The position numbers and the translations under genes are program-made. 64,000 nt of DNA from Nannobrachium achirus (taxonomy: Eukaryota > Chordata > Actinopteri > Myctophiformes > Myctophidae), in contig OY997651.1 of the NCBI GenBank assembly GCA_963921795.1, positions 53,130,018 through 53,194,017 of the forward strand. The letters run 5' to 3'. A model generated the notes under the pieces. It made no database searches and was not told the origin of the DNA. It saw only the letters and a list, made by a program, of their open reading frames with translations. Positions 15,051-53,085 of this stretch are shown here, piece by piece. How positions within the stretch are numbered: the first letter of the stretch is position 1; every line of letters begins with the position of its first letter.

Positions 15051-15426
15051 CATTTCACAAGACAGGAGTAACTGGAGGCAAAGATGGTGGCCGATTCTGT
15101 GCTGCTGCGCATATTTGCAAAGGGGCGTGGGAAAAGTTCTTCGAATGGGAGTTACTTGAGTGGGAAAGCTTCGAACGGGCGTGGGAAAAGGTCTTCGATA
15201 GTGCTGTGATATATAGAGAGAGAACCAGCGACTCGCTGCTCCACTCACATCCGACTTTGGGTTTGGGGTCTCGGCCGCGGACCACTTCCAGGTACCCCTG
15301 CCCTGGCTGGCGATATAACAGGGGATATGGGGATATATATAGAGAGAGAACCAGGGGCACGGGGCGGCGAGAGAGGGCGAGATCATTTAGCGACCTGGGT
15401 TGCAACCTGGTCGGTAGTTTTCACCG

Positions 15427-15705
15427 ACTGGGTCGCTAAATCTACCGGCTGGGTCGCTAAATCTACCGACTGGGTTGCTAAATCTACCGACTGGGTCGCT
15501 AAATTTACCGACTGGGTCGCTAAATCTACCGACTGGGTCGCTAAATCTACCGACTGGGTCGCTAAATCTACCGACTGGGTCGCTAAATTTACCGACTGGG
15601 TCGCTAAATTTACCGACTGGGTCGCTAAATCTACCGACTGGGTCGCTAAATCTACCGACTGGGTCGCTAAATCTACCGACAGGGTCGCTTATCCACCGAC
15701 CGGGC
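15427..15705 (+). repeat. Left minisatellite arm, about 13 x 21 bp
   Basis: Head-to-tail copies of CTGGGTCGCTAAATCTACCG plus A, nearly identical (TCT/TTT variants). Units near the telomeric core are more diverged. Because the unit is 21 bp, long open frames appear (VAKSTDW), which are not genes. Confidence 0.95.
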
Positions 15706-15773
15706 TGCTAACCCTAACCCTAACCCAAACCCTAACCCTAACCCTAACCCAAACCCTAACCCTAACCCTAACC
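15706..15773 (+). repeat. Interstitial telomere-type repeats (CCCTAA)n
   Basis: About ten CCCTAA hexamers with two CCCAAA variants, reading AACCCTAACCCTAACCCAAA and so on. They sit exactly between the two oppositely oriented minisatellite arms. The hexamer is the vertebrate telomere repeat, C-strand on plus. Confidence 0.95.
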
Positions 15774-16425
15774 GTCGGTAGATTTAGCGACCCAGTCGGT
15801 AGATTTAGCAACCCAGTCGGTGATTTAGCGACCCAGTCGGTAGATTTAGCAACCCAGTCGGTGATTTAGCAACACAGTCGGTAGATTTAGCGACCCAGTC
15901 GGTAGATTTAGCAACCCAGTCGGTGATTTAGCAACCCAGTCGGTGATTTAGCGACCCAGTCTGTAGATTTAGCGACCCAGTCGGTAGATTTAGCAACCCA
16001 GTCGGTGATTTAGCGACCCAGTCGGTAGATTTAGCAACCCAGTCGGTAGATTTAGCAACCCCAGTCGGTGATTTAGCAACCCAGTCGGTAGATTTAGCAA
16101 CCCAGTCGGTGATTTAGCAACCCAGTCGGTAGATTTAGCAACCCAGTCGGTGATTTAGCAACCCAGTCGGTAGATTTAGCAACCTGGTCGGTATTAGCGA
16201 CCAGTCGGTAGATTTAGCAACCCAGTCGGTGATTTAGCAACCCAGTCGGTAGATTTAGCGACCCAGTCGGTAGATTTAGCAACCCAGTCGGTAGATTTAG
16301 CGACCCAGTCGGTAGATTTAGCAACCCAGTCGGTGGATTTAGCGACCCAGTCGGTAGATTTAGCGACCCAGTCGGTAGATTTAGCAAACCAGTCGGTGGA
16401 TTTAGCGACCCAGTCGGTGAAAACT
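15774..16425 (-). repeat. Right minisatellite arm, about 31 units, inverted
   Basis: The same unit as the left arm but reverse complemented (GTCGGTAGATTTAGCGACCC), with frequent 20-bp units lacking one base pair (GTCGGTGATTTAGC) alternating with 21-bp units. At its outer end GTGAAAACTACCGACCAGGT mirrors the left arm's start at 15401-15425, so the whole array is one large palindrome. Confidence 0.95.
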
Positions 16426-16928
16426 ACCGACCAGGTTGCAACCCAGTTGTAGGTCGCTAAATGATCTCGCTCCTACTGGGGGCGGCAGCCGTTCCACTCC
16501 TATCCGACTTTGGAGCCTCGGCGTGGGACGGCCGAGTGGCTCGTATCGCGGACGGAGCTCCGGGGACCCCCTGGCAGCGCCACGCTACACCCTGTGTAGC
16601 CGGAAAAATGATCCTTCTAACGGGGTGGCTCACGGACGGCGCCAGGGGGACTATCGCTCCGGCCTCCGGGGGACCACCGTCCACCTGCTGGACGCAAATG
16701 TGGTCGCGCCGCTGCGAGGACCGCTGCCACTGCAGCCCACTTCGGAAAGGAGTGGAACGGCGGCCGCCCCGTGCCCCTGGTTCTCTCTCTCGATATCCGC
16801 ATGTCCCCCTGTTATATAGCCAGGGGTCCCTGGAGGTGGTCCACGGCACGCGTGCCACACGTCGGTCCAAGGCCGATCGAGGCGGCCCCAAAGTCCGCAT
16901 TAAAAACCGCATTAACATGAGCCGCTGC

Positions 16929-17100
16929 GGCCGAACGTCCGGTAAAATGAGACCCGACCCCGTCCAAAATTCGCAGCGCACTAAGTAGTGTAATTACGGT
17001 AGAAACTGCGAGTGGAGCCGAACGTCCAGTGAAATGAGCCCCCGTCCAAAATTCGCTGCACATTAAGTAGTGTAATTACGGTAGAAACTGAGAGTGGAGC
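16929..17100. repeat. Tandem duplication of about 87 bp
   Basis: Two direct copies of a unit holding CCGAACGTCC, GTCCAAAATTCGC and AAGTAGTGTAATTACGGTAG, at 16929-17015 and 17017-17100. It lies in the right flank of the foldback element only. Confidence 0.85.
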
Positions 17101-17237
17101 GGCGAGCCGCTGGTCATACGTTTTTGGCAGCTTTTCCCACACCCGTTCAAAGACCTAACGCCACGCCCATTCGAAGACCTCACGTCACACCCATCTGCGC
17201 AGCAGACTGCCTGGAGTTACTCATACTTGCATTTCAC

Positions 17238-21982: not shown

Positions 21983-23410
21983 AAAGAGGCAATGTCCGCA
22001 CACGTTAAAATGCTCACCCGTCTTTTCTTTATTAATAACCAAACAACGTTTCGCCCAACAGGGCTTTCTCAAGTTCAAGTTACAATGATCTGGCCTTTGG
22101 ACCATTTTATAAGTCCACATCAGTGGGTGTCCTCACTCAATCAGTTCATTACCCAATCGAAATCCACTCCATACAATAATGATTATCAGTTAAAGGGCCA
22201 TACCTCTGAACAATATAGGTTAAAATATCACACATTACATATCACAAAAAATAAGCAAAATACATACAATACAATATAGGATCTAGATAAGCATGTCAGT
22301 CAGGTACAAAATTATTACAGAAATGGTCTAATATCCAAATCCAAGTTCATACCAAAAGGTTTTAATGTTCATATATCCAGAATGTCTCCCTTTTTAGTAG
22401 GAGAGACTCCCAGTCTCCTCCCCTGCGAGGTTTTTCTACTTTCTCCAATCCAATATACCTTAAGGCTGATACATTGTGGCCAGCTTGCATAAAGTGCATA
22501 GCCACTGGACTACGTATGTTCTGAGTCCTAATGTCACTTCGGTGTTCAGTAATGCGCGTTTTAAGCGCTCTTGTCGTCATTCCCACATATGCTAATGAAC
22601 ATGGACATTTTAACATGTACACCAAATGTGTTGTTTTACATGAAATAATACCTTTAATGTCATATTTCTTTCCTGTTGACGGATGATTAAAGGAATTACA
22701 TTTGTAAGTAAAATTGCATTGTGTGCAACTACCACATTTATAATTGCCATTCGGGATATCATCCAGGAAAGTTCTGGGTTTAATGGGTGCTAGGTCTGAT
22801 CTCACCACTAGGGACCTAATGTTAGGAGGTCGTTTATAGACCACCTGTGGTGGGGCTTTAAAGGCATCTTTTAAAACAGGGTCAGTTGTCACAATATGCC
22901 AGTGTTTTTTAATTATGTTATTAAACACATCACCCAACGGTGAGTATGTAAACACTGTGGTACTTTTTCCTTAATGGGTTTCACTTTAGGTTGTAGGCAT
23001 TCCTCCTGGGATATATTATCAAACCGTTCTGATGCCTTATCAATCCACTCTTCAGGGTATCCCCTATTTTGAAAACGTACTTTCATATCCTGTTTTTGTT
23101 TTTCATACCTTTCTGTTGAGCCACATATACGCTTAATTCTATTAAACTGGCTAATAGGTAAGCTTTTCTTAAGTGGTGTTGGGTGGTAACTGTCTCGTCT
23201 TAGTAGGGTATTTCTGTCTGTTGGTTTTCGATATAGGTCTGTCGTCAGTGAGTTACCTTCTCTTATGACAGTAATATCCAGAAATTCAATTTTGTCAGTG
23301 CTCATATTCAAGGTGAATTTTAATTCACTAGCTTCATTCAAGAAAACATGAAAAGCATTCATTTCCTCAATTGTACCATGAAATATGAGAAATATATCAT
23401 CCAAAAATCC
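21983..23410 (-). mobile_element. Penelope inverted partial copy (RT end + GIY-YIG nuclease)
   Basis: On minus this copy runs from the RT active-site segment (LDDIFLIFHGT) through the C-terminal GIY-YIG endonuclease (YMLKCPCSLAYVG, KTRITEHRSDI) to the 3' end. It lacks the N-terminal region. It is not interrupted by the Harbinger element and so preserves the empty target site AGAATTAAGCG near 23133. Confidence 0.9.
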
Positions 23411-23442
23411 GTATAGCTTTAAGCTATTGTACTTTTCTTAAG

Positions 23443-25801
23443 ATGACAACGCCACAGGATTCAACCCAGCAAGAAACGGACCTCGCGGCAACCTTCCAGT
23501 TTACAACGGAAGATTACGAATGCATCATGACAAAAGAATCCTTGTTTAATGATGAGACAAGGATCCCGATGGTGAGAAACTCTACTGGAGATATTGAGAC
23601 CCAGATGAAGAAGATGAAACACTTAATCGAACAAGAAGTGGGTCAATATCTCCACACAATTACGTTGAGTGACTATCTGAGATGTCAGAGAATACCACGG
23701 GGGCTTAGAATACAAAAAGAGCCTGCAATTGGGCGAAATAATGACGCCTTTTGTCAGAAATGGTGCGAGATCTTAAACAAGGCCTCGTTCGACCTGATGG
23801 CACTATGCATCCGAGAAGAAACTGAGCAACTCATACGTACAAGACAAGAAATAGATAAAGCACATGAGGAAATAACAAAGGCACTACCAGATAAGAAGAA
23901 ACGTTAAACTTGAACTTCAGGAGTATAAAACGAAACTGGAGGAAGAAAAGAAAGAGACCAAACGAAATAAGTTCACAAGGGATATAGAAGACTACAATGA
24001 ACAAAAGATCTACTTTTGGAAAGACGGATATCGAAAAGGAGGTGGAGAGAAACCACGACCAAAACGCGGAAAGCGAAGACAACAACCGAGACAAAAGAAT
24101 GGTTGGACCTCCGCGTCATCATTGGAATCGGGTGGTGGGAGCCAGTCAGACACAGCGCCTCGCCATTTTTTAGGGAATCCCGGAGAAGGGCTTCCCCAAA
24201 TGAAAGCGCAGCAACCGCATCATCAGCAGTGGCGCAGCTACCAGCCAACAGCGCCTCAGCGTGGCCGCGGCGGAAATGCAGGAGGGGACAAAAGAAGAAA
24301 TACACGCTCCCCACACCGCATGCACCGGAGCCAGAAGCAGTACTAAACCTTTCGGACAGGTCAGTGACTGAGACGGAATTATCTGCATTAAGAAGAGGCC
24401 TCAGCTTCGTTCCCACTACTTATTGTAACGACTTCCAAGTGATGGTTGATTTTCAAAAATTCTTTCGAACACTAAGACTTAAAGAATTTTATCTACCTAG
24501 AACAGATGTGCTAACGCAGGTTGTGGCAGAGCCTGTCACTACTCAAGTGGATATGGATACTGAGGAAAATAAACCCAGTACTCCATTTAGACCCAAGTCA
24601 GTATTTATTCCATTTAAGGGCAGAAATGCATCATTGGATACTTACTGTCGTATGGTGGATCAAGATGTCCACCGGGCTTTGAAAAATAAAAAAGAATATA
24701 AAACTATGAACAATATGCCCAAAGCAGAGAGAGAAGCATTACGCGCTCTTAAATCGGACTCCACTATTGTGATACGCTCTGCAGATAAGGGGGGCTCGAT
24801 TGTTATTCAGAATACAGTAGATTATGTAAAGGAATGCATGAGACAATTGAATGATGAAAACTCATATCAAAGACTGTCTAAAGATCCCACCATGGAATAC
24901 AAAGCTAGAATCCACGACAAACTTGACACACTTTTAGAACAAGGTGTGATAACGAAAAAAGAATGTGGGTTTATGAAAGTGGAAAATCCCTGCATCCCTA
25001 TATTTTACACTCTACCAAAAATACACAAGTGTCTGAATAATCCAAAGGGCCGCCCCATTGTATCTGGTATTGGTTCATTGACTGAAAAGATATCCACGTT
25101 TGTGGATTATTTTCTAAAGCCGTGCGCTATGGAACTGCCGTCCTTTACACGCGATTCCATAGACTTTATAAATACCATTAAAAACTTGGAGATTGAAGAG
25201 AATGCTCTATTGGCGACTTTAGATGTGGAAAGTTTATACACAAATATTCCCCATGAAGCGGGCCTGGACGCAATGGAGCATTTCCTCCAACAGCGTCATT
25301 TAGACGCATCTCCAAGTGCTACACATATCAGAGACTTGGCATCCCTGGTCTTATACCATAATTTCTTTATGTTTCAGGACAAATACTACCTCCAATCTCG
25401 GGGGGTTGCAATGGGCAGCCCCATGGCCCCGGGATTAGCAAACCTTTTCATGGGATGGTTTGAAAAGGAGTGGATCTACAATCCAGAAAAGAACCCCTTC
25501 TTCAAAAAGATAAAAATATGGCGGAGATTTTTGGATGATATATTTCTCATATTTCATGGTACAATTGAGGAAATGAATGCTTTTCATGTTTTCTTGAATG
25601 AAGCTAGTGAATTAAAATTCACCTTGCATATGAGCACTGACAAAATTGAATTTCTGGATATTACTGTCATAAGAGAAGGTAACTCACTGACGACAGACCT
25701 ATATCAAAAACCAACAGACAGAAATACCCTACTAAGACGAGACAGTTACCACCCAACACCACTTAAGAAAAGCTTACCTATTAGCCAGTTTAATAGAATT
25801 A
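23443..25801 (+). CDS. Penelope N-terminal region and reverse transcriptase
   Basis: An N-terminal segment starting MTTPQDSTQQETDLAAT (23443-23907) precedes the main ORF (from 24016). The latter has the Penelope hallmark LSALRRGLSFVPTTYCNDFQ, RT motifs ATLDVESLYTNIPH (near residue 398), GVAMGSPMAPGLANLFM (near 475), and RRFLDDIF (near 503), then FLDITVIREGNSLTTDLYQK. The reading frame is not continuous across this whole stretch, and the RT end is cut by the inserted Harbinger element. The product would be a telomerase-related reverse transcriptase used for target-primed integration. Confidence 0.85.
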
Positions 25802-26118
25802 GAGGGCTCTTACACGGAGACGAATTTCTTATTACCAGGTAGTTTTTAGTAGTAAAACGGCCATTTTGACACACGGAGACGCGTTTTTATGACCTAATCC
25901 GACACTGTTTTGAATTCGGGTCTGAAAGTGGAAAAGTGCGTTTTCGCATCAAATACGCAGCTGTGTAATAAAGGAAATCGGCGAGGGAGAGTGCGATGAT
26001 GTCATAACACCCCCTCCCCTGCTCCTCCTCCCCTGCTCCATGAAGGGTCCAGCCCACTAGTTGCTCACACACACCACAACAACAACAACAACACTACAGT
26101 AGCAACACTACAGTAGCA

Positions 26119-27188: not shown

Positions 27189-28028
27189 GGTAGCAAAACC
27201 ACAATATAAATAATTTGACACTGTTGAAATGTTAAGAATAAAACATATCAAGCATTGGCATCAATATACTAAATGAATGAACCCAAACGGGTCCATTTGG
27301 TTCCATTTGTACTCTGTCAGTTACAGTCTTGTAAGGGTCTATTATTATATCATGTTATAGGCTTTAGTTAATGTTTATCGTAAGAAAATAGTCCATAGAT
27401 CATCTGATGCATGCATTGATGCTGGAATAAGCTGCTCTTCAAACCAGTGCAGCTAAACGTTCTCTTATTGATCAGTTATTGTGTTCATCGAAATCATGTA
27501 AGTCAGTGGTTCGCAAACTCATGCAGCCCCATTAGAGAAGATAAGCCAGGGACCCCCCATAAGAGAATATATTTTTAAGGCTCCAGGAGTGATTACCCAA
27601 CCATTTTAATTTCAAAGATCCCCAATTATAACTACTCTCAATGGTAAAATTATTGATACAAATCTGCATTGATTAACTTGAGTAAAATTTGCAAAATAAT
27701 ATACATCTGTTATTTGTTGAAATACAATTACTTGAAAAAGGGCAGATCTACAAGTTATTGATCAAATCAAACTTTATTTATCAATCACTTACAAAAAAAA
27801 TGTCCAGAGTGCAGTGCACGTCAACAATATAACAAAAGCAAGAGGTAGTCTTTACTGGTTTTCCAGTGCCACCTGTAGGCCGGGCATATGAACTACAGCA
27901 TTTTGCATTACATGGTGCGTTCCGTGTAAATGCAGACAATATGAGCCAATGCGAGGTGTAAAGGCGATCTCATTTTGAAAACGAATCCAAAATGAGATCG
28001 GCAGCGCCTCCGTGTAATAAGGGCCTTA

Positions 28029-28858
28029 AGCGTATATGTGGCTCAACAGAAAGGTATGAAAAACAAAAACAGGATATGAAAGTACGTTTTCAAAATAGGG
28101 GATACCCTGAAGAGTGGATTGATAAGGCATCAGAACGGTTTGATAATATATCCCAGGAGGAATGCCTACAACCTAAAGTGAAACCCATTAAGGAAAAAGT
28201 ACCACAGTGTTTTATAACATACTCACCGTTGGGTGATGTGTTTAATAACATAATTAAAAAACACTGGCATATTGTGACAACTGACCCTGTTTTAAAAGAT
28301 GCCTTTAAAGCCCCACCACAGGTGGTCTATAAACGACCTCCTAACATTAGGTCCCTAGTGGTGAGATCAGACCTAGCACCCATTAAACCCAGAACTTTCC
28401 TGGATGATATCCCGAATGGCAATTATAAATGTGGTAGTTGCACACAATGCAATTTTACTTACAAATGTAATTCCTTTAATCATCCGTCAACAGGAAAGAA
28501 ATATGACATTAAAGGTATTATTTCATGTAAAACAACACATGTGGTGTACATGTTAAAATGTCCATGTTCATTAGCATATGTGGGAATGACGACAAGAGCG
28601 CTTAAAACGCGCATTACTGAACACCGAAGTGACATTAGGACTCAGAACATACGTAGTCCAGTGGCTATGCACTTTATGCAAGCTGGCCACAATGTATCAG
28701 CCTTAAGGTATATTGGATTGGAGAAAGTAGAAAAACCTCGCAGGGGAGGAGACTGGGAGTCTCTCCTACTAAAAAGGGAGACATTCTGGATATATGAACT
28801 TAGAACATTAAAACCTTTTGGTATGAACTTGGATTTGGATATTAGACCATTTCTGTAA
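28029..28858 (+). CDS. Penelope C-terminal region with GIY-YIG endonuclease
   Basis: Continues the plus Penelope copy beyond the Harbinger insertion. It has LKRICGSTERYEKQ, a Cys cluster (CGSCTQCNFTYKC), then the GIY-YIG nuclease: VYMLKCPCSLAYVG with KTRITEHRSDIR and ESLLLKRETFWIYEL. Ends DIRPFL and stop at 28856-28858. The nuclease cuts target DNA to prime reverse transcription. The first dozen codons of the open frame (from 27992) belong to the inserted Harbinger element, not to Penelope. Confidence 0.9.
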
Positions 28859-33279: not shown

Positions 33280-33440
33280 GCGGGCGAGAGAGAGAGAGAG
33301 AGAGGAGAGAGGGGAGAGAGGGGGGGGGTGAGCGCAAGGGGAGAGAGTCCTATACAAATCATTGAGAGAGGGAATGGGTGATGGGTGTTTCTAAGTAATG
33401 AGCGCGAGAGGGGGGAGAGGGGGGGAGAGGGGGGGGGGTG
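33280..33440. repeat. GA-rich low-complexity tracts
   Basis: Purine-rich runs of GAGAGA and GGGGGAGAGG at 33288-33330 and 33405-33440. Confidence 0.9.
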
Positions 33441-33552
33441 AGAGTCTTATATTCGGAATAAAGGTGTCTTTCAATTTTGTTTCGGAATAGGGGTCCGTCG
33501 GAATAACGGTGTTTCGGAATAGCGGACCGTCCCCCCCTCAACCCTATGTTCC

Positions 33553-51460: not shown

Positions 51461-53085
51461 ACTTCCTGCACATGGTTGTGTGTAAAGAGGAGGATTCTAT
51501 TAAACAGGAGAGGAGCTCCAGTCTGCTCCAGGAGGAACCAGGGCCTCCACACATTAAAGAGGAACAGGAGGAACCAGAGCCTTCACACATTAAAACACAG
51601 GAGGAGATACTTCAAAGACCAGAGGAGCCTGATGGATCTATGTTGACATTATTAGCAGTCAAAAGTGAAGTTGATGCAGACATCTTTTCACACTGCTCTG
51701 AGGTTAAACTTGACTCTGACCCTGAAGTCAGTGAAGACAGTGATTGGGGGGAGATGTTTTCAAGTAGAGGTGTCAATAGAGAAAAACCTTTCCAGTGTAG
51801 ATTGTGTAACACACGTTTCAGTGAGTCAGGTGCCCTGAAGACACATGAGCTTATCCACACAAGAGAAAAACCTTTCCACTGTAAACATTGTGACAAGAGT
51901 TTCACTCAGATAAACCATCTAAATTCACATGAGCGTATCCACAGAAGACCTTTCCACTGTAAACATTGTGACAAGAGTTTCACTCGGATAGGTCATCTAA
52001 ATTCACATGAGCGTATCCACAAAAGTGAAAAACCTTTCCGTTGTAAAAATTGTGACACGAGTGTCAATCAGTTAGGTAGTCTAAAGACACATGAGCATAT
52101 CCACACAGGAGAAAAACCTTTCCACTGTAAACATTGTGACAAGAGTTTCAATCAGATAAGTCATCTAAATTCACATGAGAGTTTCCACACAGGAGAAAAA
52201 CCTTTCCACCGTAAACATTGTGACAAGAGTTTCAATCATTTAGGTAATCTAAAGACACATGAGCGTTTACACACAGGAGAAAAACCTTTCCACTGTAAAT
52301 ATTGTGACAAGAGTTTCAATCAGTTATGTAATCTAAAGACACATGAGCGTATCCATACAGGAGAAAAACCTTTCCACCGTAAACATTGTGACAAGAGTTT
52401 CAATCATTTAGGTAATCTAAAGACACATGAGCGTTTCCACACAGGAGAAAAACCTTTCCACTGTAAATATTGTGACAAGAGTTTCAATCAGTTAGCTAAT
52501 CTAAAGACACATGAGCGTATCCATACAGGAGAAAAACCTTTCCACTGTAAACATTGCGACAAGAGTTTCAATCAGTTAGGTAATCTAAAGACACATGAGC
52601 GTTTCCACACAGGAGAAAAACCTTTCCACTGTAAACATTGTGACAAGAGTTTCAATCAGATAAGTAATCTAAATTCACATGAGCGTATCCACACAGGAGA
52701 AAAACCTTTCCACTGTAAACATTGTGACAAGAGTTTCAATAATTTAGGTAGTCTAAAGATACATGAGCGTATCCACACAGGAGAAAAACCTTATCTAAAT
52801 TCACATGAGCGTATCCACACAGGAGAAAAACCTTTCCACTGTAAACATTGTGACAAGAGTTTCAATTATTTAAGTAGTCTAAAGATGCATGAACGTATCC
52901 ACACAGGAGAAAAACCTTTCCACTGTAAACATTGCGACAAGGGTTTCAATCAATTAGGTAATCTAAAGACACATGAGCGTATCCACACAAGAAAAACAAC
53001 TTTGCAGTGTCAAAGCTGTAACAAGAGTTTCAGCATTTCATCTAAGCTGAAGACACACCAGCATATCCACACTGGAACATTGTGA
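51461..53085 (+). CDS. C2H2 zinc-finger gene, terminal exon (15 fingers)
   Basis: Acceptor TTTCTGCTCCTAG opens the exon at 51461. From Met at 51472 it runs 537 residues. The N-terminal 105 residues are acidic with several sumoylation-type motifs (IKQE, IKEE, VKSE). From about residue 107 there are 15 C2H2 fingers with HTGEKPF linkers. Fingers 6 and 8 have lost the first Cys (FHRKHC), finger 4 has VNQ instead of the usual Phe, and a half finger (PYLNSHERIH) lies between fingers 12 and 13. Middle fingers are almost identical (FHCKHCDKSFNQLGNLKTHE), so the array has been homogenised by duplication or conversion. Probable nuclear DNA-binding transcription factor; target unknown. Past the stop, 53088-53145 still reads as a decayed further finger (SGALKCHQRVH). 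Confidence 0.9.

Follow-up and report, generated by a model that had tools for sequence, protein, structure and literature searches.

To judge from the accessible portion of its published account, the closest described structure to the one reported here is the foldback element Tetris of Drosophila virilis, which is non-autonomous, has long inverted repeats with tandem repeats around a middle domain, makes 8-10-bp duplications, and is an element for which no transposase was found (PMC4079207). Galileo, of the P superfamily, likewise combines long inverted repeats with internal tandem repeats, which according to the available part of its description hold transposase-binding sites (PMC3688188). 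Here we describe a 1110-bp foldback element of Nannobrachium achirus (hereafter the inner element), which lies within a second DNA element (the outer, or host, element) in a 64-kb stretch of contig C14 (positions 53130018-53194017; hereafter the window) of a 1.66-Gb, 564-contig assembly, and which carries a block of telomere repeats between its inverted arms. Tetris has another repeat sequence and the part of its account available to us mentions no telomeric core, whereas the inner family has a CCCTAA middle and hundreds of copies (PMC4079207). Nor does the corresponding account of Galileo mention a telomeric core; the inner family, for its part, is not linked to a P-type transposase, no P search having been made (PMC3688188).

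Two telomere-bearing systems also invite comparison, within the same partial coverage of their sources. Vertebrate short interstitial telomeric sequences (ITS) and TERC-ITS resemble the inner element in placing short telomeric tracts within chromosomes, but in the present genome transposition multiplies the tract (PMC8537989). Telomere-associated Penelope-like elements are mobile and bear telomeric hexamers; they are, however, retroelements located close to chromosome ends, their hexamers lying at the 3' end, whereas the inner element is a DNA element which holds its hexamers internally and is scattered within chromosomes (PMC4522978). The open-access literature, in the parts covered, contains no description of DNA transposons spreading telomeric repeats, subscription journals lying mostly outside this scope. 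All results below derive from the sequence of one assembly, and repeat counts across the genome are lower bounds.

The inner foldback family and its telomeric tract

The inner element (15369..16478) is flanked by 8-bp target duplications, GGGGCGGC, at 15361..15368 and 16479..16486, the only two occurrences of this 8-mer on the + strand of the window (its reverse complement occurs four times). Its ends are GAGAGAGGGCGAG and CAGTAGGAGCGAG. The left terminus (15369..15395, + strand) consists of GAGAGAGG followed by GCGAGATCATTTAGCGACC, and the right terminus (16452..16478, - strand), read inward, of CAGTAGGA followed by GCGAGATCATTTAGCGACC; beyond this inverted core the two ends are unlike, one carrying CAGTAGGA and the other GAGAGAGG, and variants of them are few. 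Between them stand two arrays of one 20-21-bp unit, identified on the left (15423..15711, + strand; 21-bp unit, 13.8 copies) by tandem-repeat detection, and on the right (15774..16418, - strand; 31.3 copies, inverted) by repeat detection, arm comparison and a count of the unit core, in agreement with an earlier note on this DNA which had counted about 13 and about 31 inverted copies. The arms at 15395-15609 and 16232-16446 are 95% complementary across 215 bp. All 42 occurrences of the unit core (GGTYGCTAAAT or its complement) in the 64 kb fall within 15369-16478, 12 of them forward to the left of the telomeric block, 28 reverse to its right, and one in each terminus. As arm unit and terminus share the motif ATTTAGCGACC, the arms look like amplified terminal sequence.

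The telomeric block itself (15708..15773, + strand) comprises 11 hexamers, CCCTAA or CCCAAA (66 bp), and can alternatively be read as 2.8 copies of a 24-bp unit. A telomeric 16-mer matches the window nine times at no more than one mismatch, against a shuffle mean of 0.01, and neither the array unit nor the telomeric tract was found in the window outside the palindrome. The earlier note had placed the CCCTAA repeats exactly at the palindrome's centre, which is right in that they sit where the arms switch orientation, but they lie about 34% along the inner element and not at its midpoint.

Copies of the inner element are abundant. The 19-bp terminus GCGAGATCATTTAGCGACC has 1741 genomic matches (873 + 868) at no more than one mismatch, and its reversed control none, so that the further copies for which the earlier note had proposed to search do exist. 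We assembled 38 inner copies: 29 convergent terminus pairs less than 2 kb apart among 100 exact places listed (contig C1, and C2 to 24.1 Mb), the window copy, and eight of the best matches to the centre. The census of 29 was chosen solely by two exact termini and not by telomeric content, and favours younger copies, with old ones under-represented. The 8-bp duplication is exact in 26 of the 38 and matches at seven of eight positions in five more; random comparisons gave one exact 8-bp match in 7600. Foldback arms of tandem repeats are present in the family, the shortest copies (L074, L075) having lost most of theirs, and inverted arms around the tract recur at other loci (for example L077), which argues against an assembly artefact. 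In the window copy the longest stop-free stretch, on repeat DNA, is 166 codons, and the length and composition of the other 37 indicate that they too would lack a transposase gene. The inner element is a non-autonomous DNA transposon with terminal inverted repeats, of the foldback type of miniature inverted-repeat transposable element (MITE). Elsewhere, at C1:84825530-84839532, five exact inner termini lie on one strand, each 3496 bp from the next, and belong to a tandem array which includes one element end.

A tract of at least 12 bp is present in 22 of the 29 census copies, in two arrangements. In form A, mostly 0.63-0.80 kb long, (CCCTAA)n is followed by ACCTAACCTCAGTAACC, and the tract lies within one arm with the inversion elsewhere (for example L070); form B, to which the window copy belongs, is mostly 1.1-1.8 kb long and has the order ...ACCGGGCTGCTAA(CCCTAA/CCCAAA)nCCGTCGGTAGATTTAGC, the arms inverting at the tract. 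Three copies (L078, L111, L115) have a right junction intermediate between the two, and the left junction is similar in both subfamilies, many form-A copies having ACCGGGCTACTAA before the tract, almost as in form B. Across the genome two junction patterns yielded 435 matches at up to three mismatches and 634 at up to two, with no control matches for either; as the patterns overlap, and the latter also fits copies which have lost the tract, we estimate the tract-bearing inner copies at roughly 600-1,000. Among 17 form-A copies the median identity over all pairs is 91.5%, and the best pair, L101 and L103, is 99.86% identical over 740 columns and has different target duplications. Copies more than 99% identical vary in tract length (30 bp in L101, 24 bp in L117, 18 bp in L103). 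At L122 (approximately element positions 349-390) one inner copy seemingly starts directly after the CCCTAA tract of another, as if inserted there.

Many copies, target duplications, an uninterrupted host site (treated below) and near-identical dispersed copies together make it very probable that the telomere repeats moved as internal cargo of the inner DNA element. The proposal of the earlier note that the block travelled as cargo of a DNA element stands in this respect, but the carrier is the inner element and not the outer one. A single acquisition of the tract is the simplest reading. Several observations weigh on the other side. Seven of the 29 census copies are without a 12-bp tract, which is accordingly not essential to the element, and the youngest form-A copies are without part of the left junction, which would allow for more than one acquisition. 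Seven of the 38 copies have no convincing duplication (L073, L077, L106, L108, L116, L118, L120), the register being uncertain in L106 and L116, each of which has one altered end. Finally, neither walks from the termini nor a comparison of nine KDZ places with listed inner termini yielded a transposase for the inner family, no hAT or P/THAP search having been made.

Origin of the tract and other telomere-repeat carriers

How the tract first arose is a separate matter from its transport, and is informed by other carriers of telomere repeats. Twenty ITS loci were sampled from one stretch (C1:0.7-4.4 Mb), of which four (L097, L099, L093, L094) were tested by genome search. None of the 20 belongs to the inner family, and as clusters in this stretch number about 5.2 per Mb, extrapolating very roughly to 8,600 in the genome, the inner family would be a minority source of ITS.

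The L097 family, of which five copies measure 722 or 782 bp, has ends GAGAGACAGCCGCTGAT and CAGCAAGAGCCGCTGAT, a (CCCTAA)6 tract, and an 8-bp duplication which is exact in three of the five, matches at seven of eight positions in one and is absent from one. Within the best 40 of 973 candidates (all on C1-C3), 39 span query positions 21-241 including the tract, and all 39 differ in length from 221 bp by multiples of 6 (17 are exactly 221). In this family, which includes L005 and L136-L139 on C1, C2 and C3, 16 places reach full score over the 221 bp, and it looks very young as a result. The L099 family (best 40 of 524 candidates, 79-100% identity) is represented by 11 copies read (L099 and L126-L135), of 213-225 bp with a telomere-like core between inverted repeats; a 9-bp duplication is exact in seven, two more have one of 8 bp and two have none, a length by which the family is perhaps Mutator-like. 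Repeats like TTCGGAATAGCGG at 33430-33540 of the window are similar to the inverted repeats of this family. Counting the inner family, telomeric cores occur in no fewer than three families bounded by duplications of 8 or 9 bp. L093 (1640 candidates, 41 matches, 36 of which, at 92-100% identity, span 229 bp or more of the 231 and include the tract) appears, together with L087 and L096, to represent a further dispersed family with a telomeric tract. In L094, 30 of the best 40 of 1349 candidates stop before the tract (query 1 to 69-73, the tract occupying 72-89), and ten reach at least query 87; three of the ten, counting L094 itself, match the query along its full length at 96-100%. The split fits addition of the tract to some copies of an older repeat.

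Two accounts of the first event deserve serious weight. One is that telomerase acted at a double-strand break in the ancestral element, as in ITS formed by break repair, and that transposition only multiplied the result. Insertion of ITS in this way is established in other vertebrates, according to the part of the source available (PMC8537989), and the 30 L094 places which match pre-tract bases alone, beside the ten which continue, are in keeping with it; the CCCAAA variants in a 24-bp higher-order unit and the whole-hexamer changes, however, record later reshaping, beneath which the first event is hidden. We consider this origin a real possibility, somewhat short of probable. As an account of the individual loci, break repair fares differently: its signature, as for TERC-ITS, is an independent insertion at each locus without a duplication of fixed length, and what we find are similar junctions and 8-bp duplications. 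The other account is that the tract grew by slippage from a seed in the array unit (GCTAA into CTAACCC), with no part for telomerase, and is telomere-like by sequence only. The junction does pass smoothly from GCTGCTAA into CCCTAA, and the departures from 221 bp by multiples of 6 in the L097 family (39 full matches of 40 scored) are of the kind which slippage makes; yet the same hexamer occurs in families with different ends, which is much coincidence for slippage alone. This origin may well be correct, though we would not go so far as to call it the probable one.

Sequences beside the tract are also shared between families. In a test of 16 sequences in all pairs, in which some chance excess is expected, CTCAGTAAGGCTAACCTGCCGACGC of form A (L107) and CTGAGTAGCTAACCTGCCGACGC of L097 scored 33, where the highest of 100 shuffles reached 24; AAAACGAGCGCTCCT is common to L097 and L087, and CCTCAGTAAAACTATG to L093, L087 and L096. 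An A/T-rich pair between L099 and L094 is probably a chance match, and either common descent or exchange between families would explain the others. Several families with different ends and 8- or 9-bp duplications have telomeric cores, and parts of the core neighborhood are common to families with different termini; the core could conceivably be an active module, passed between elements and retained for some benefit to them, in place of passive cargo, though we think this rather unlikely. If it were so, the core might act through telomere-protein binding, easier replication of the hairpin, or nuclear position, or else telomerase might heal aborted gap repair of transposons, and thereby give rise to new MITEs. 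A palindrome is not the general home of ITS here: in an inverted-flank test of 22 loci (the 20 sampled ITS with L001 and L005) only L082 (A/T runs), L086 and L099 were flagged, most sampled ITS not lying between inverted flanks within 180 bp, a reach which missed L097 with its more distant ends. L088 is a head-to-head (TTAGGG)n(CCCTAA)n arrangement, each half about four units long, within sequence resembling that of several other loci sampled.

The host element and the nested structure

The outer element, a non-autonomous DNA element recognized by genome matches and duplications, extends over 15059..17229 of the window, split by the inner element, and measures 1053 bp once the insert and one duplication are removed. 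The direct repeat CATTTCAC, which the earlier note had seen to enclose the whole, lies as its target duplication at 15051..15058 and 17230..17237. Its left end reads AAGACAGGAGTAACT (GAGACAGGRGTAACT in relatives), and its right end, read inward, CAAGTATGAGTAACT. Searches with the left part (15056-15400; best 40 of 180 candidates) and the right (16440-17233; best 40 of 1383) found most best relatives of the left part at 82-85% identity, with one partial match at 93%. Left-part matches typically stop at query position 313 (window 15368) and right-part matches start at about query 40 (window 16479), and among the scored places the two parts abut in other outer copies, without palindrome or CCCTAA. 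The uninterrupted junction, GGGGCGGCAGCC, stands in 22 of 54 distinct contexts; the remaining ones are variants, or come from a second site in the outer element which resembles the first, one of these lying in the window. Exact 8-bp duplications bound nine of 60 outer loci, a set in which several places occur twice and many fall short of one or both ends; L034 and L035, both among the nine, are one duplicated site.

The structure in the window is two nested elements, as the palindrome has its own boundaries, its own GGGGCGGC duplication, and an uninterrupted site in other outer copies. The element bounded by CAAG...GAGTAACT and CATTTCAC, which the earlier note had taken for the carrier, is the host, its other copies being without the palindrome. 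An empty site, that of the inner element, is found in other host copies, and a single copy without an empty site, which that note had named as refuting, is not what the genome shows. That all of 15051-17237 is a single foldback transposon carrying the telomeric block, as inverted terminal letters and CATTTCAC enclosing everything might suggest, is refuted for practical purposes by the uninterrupted outer copies and by an insert with its own duplication and family. It is just as improbable that the copies are artefacts of assembly or segmental duplication: some do lie in duplicated segments (L034 shares its flanks with L035, for example, and L021 with L025) and on C1 one terminus recurs every 3496 bp, but among the 38 inner copies 26 are each flanked by an exact 8-bp duplication of their own.

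Beyond the nested pair, frames in the window match the C2H2 zinc-finger, rhodanese, kelch, reverse transcriptase and, weakly, GIY-YIG families, a set in keeping with a vertebrate and probably with a ray-finned fish. The zinc-finger frame (51472-53085, 537 codons) has 84-bp finger repeats highly identical to each other. Frames at 22362-25842 and 27992-28858 resemble the arrangement of a Penelope-like element, with reverse transcriptase at 24016-25842 and, at 27992-28858, a GIY-YIG match scoring just under the Pfam cut-off.

Mobilization and significance

The 8-bp duplication of the inner family agrees with hAT elements without being specific to them. Duplications of this length are compatible with hAT, P or KDZ, and letter preference across the 26 exact duplications singles out no superfamily. 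The terminal letters of the inner, outer and L097 families are alike, with GAGA... at one end and CA... at the opposite one, a similarity which suggests that they may belong to one superfamily. KDZ/Zisupton elements likewise make 8-bp duplications, by the part of the account available (PMC12730594). The genome has 68 KDZ matches, and the nine on C1 and on C2 below 24.1 Mb are all more than 10 kb away from any listed exact inner terminus (compared by eye); no link between KDZ genes and the inner family is shown. At L024 (C6:11347841-11349167) an outer-family copy directly adjoins an open KDZ transposase exon, which we read as an insertion next to the exon. Contig C1 also has 21 exact inner termini without partner or known junction (counted by eye), eight of which were read 381 bp inward. 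As autonomous-partner candidates, L140, L144 and L146 were ruled out by an altered second end nearby and L147 by its very short length; L141, L142, L143 and L145 continue into other sequence. Walks from L143 (2.5 kb) and L145 (2.0 kb) met neither another terminus nor a stop-free stretch of more than 166 codons, their frames not having been searched against families. Viral contigs gave no exact match to the inner terminus.

Taken as a whole, a foldback MITE with telomeric cargo and 8-bp duplications is the explanation in which we have strong confidence. The inner element, a long MITE with asymmetric ends, would be moved in trans by a transposase encoded elsewhere in the genome, and its arm arrays probably serve as extra transposase-binding sites, by analogy with Galileo. 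The tract would have been acquired within an ancestral element, most simply once, then carried to hundreds of loci within the interior of the element, its length changing by whole hexamers in the manner of a microsatellite. In one subfamily the arms switch orientation exactly at the tract, which places the telomere block between inverted arms, and in the window one such copy has entered an older element whose terminal letters resemble its own.

Internal telomere repeats are routinely interpreted as relics of a chromosome fusion or of break repair, and enter karyotyping by fluorescence in situ hybridization, telomere-length assays and studies of fragility. A DNA transposon with internal telomere repeats constitutes a third route to ITS, seldom considered when such repeats are explained, which multiplies tracts and is recognizable by its target duplications. 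Copies which are nearly identical and share an origin also make hexamer turnover measurable. The inner family alone accounts for several hundred tracts here, and other families carry them likewise, so that a telomeric tract in this genome is no proof of a fusion point.
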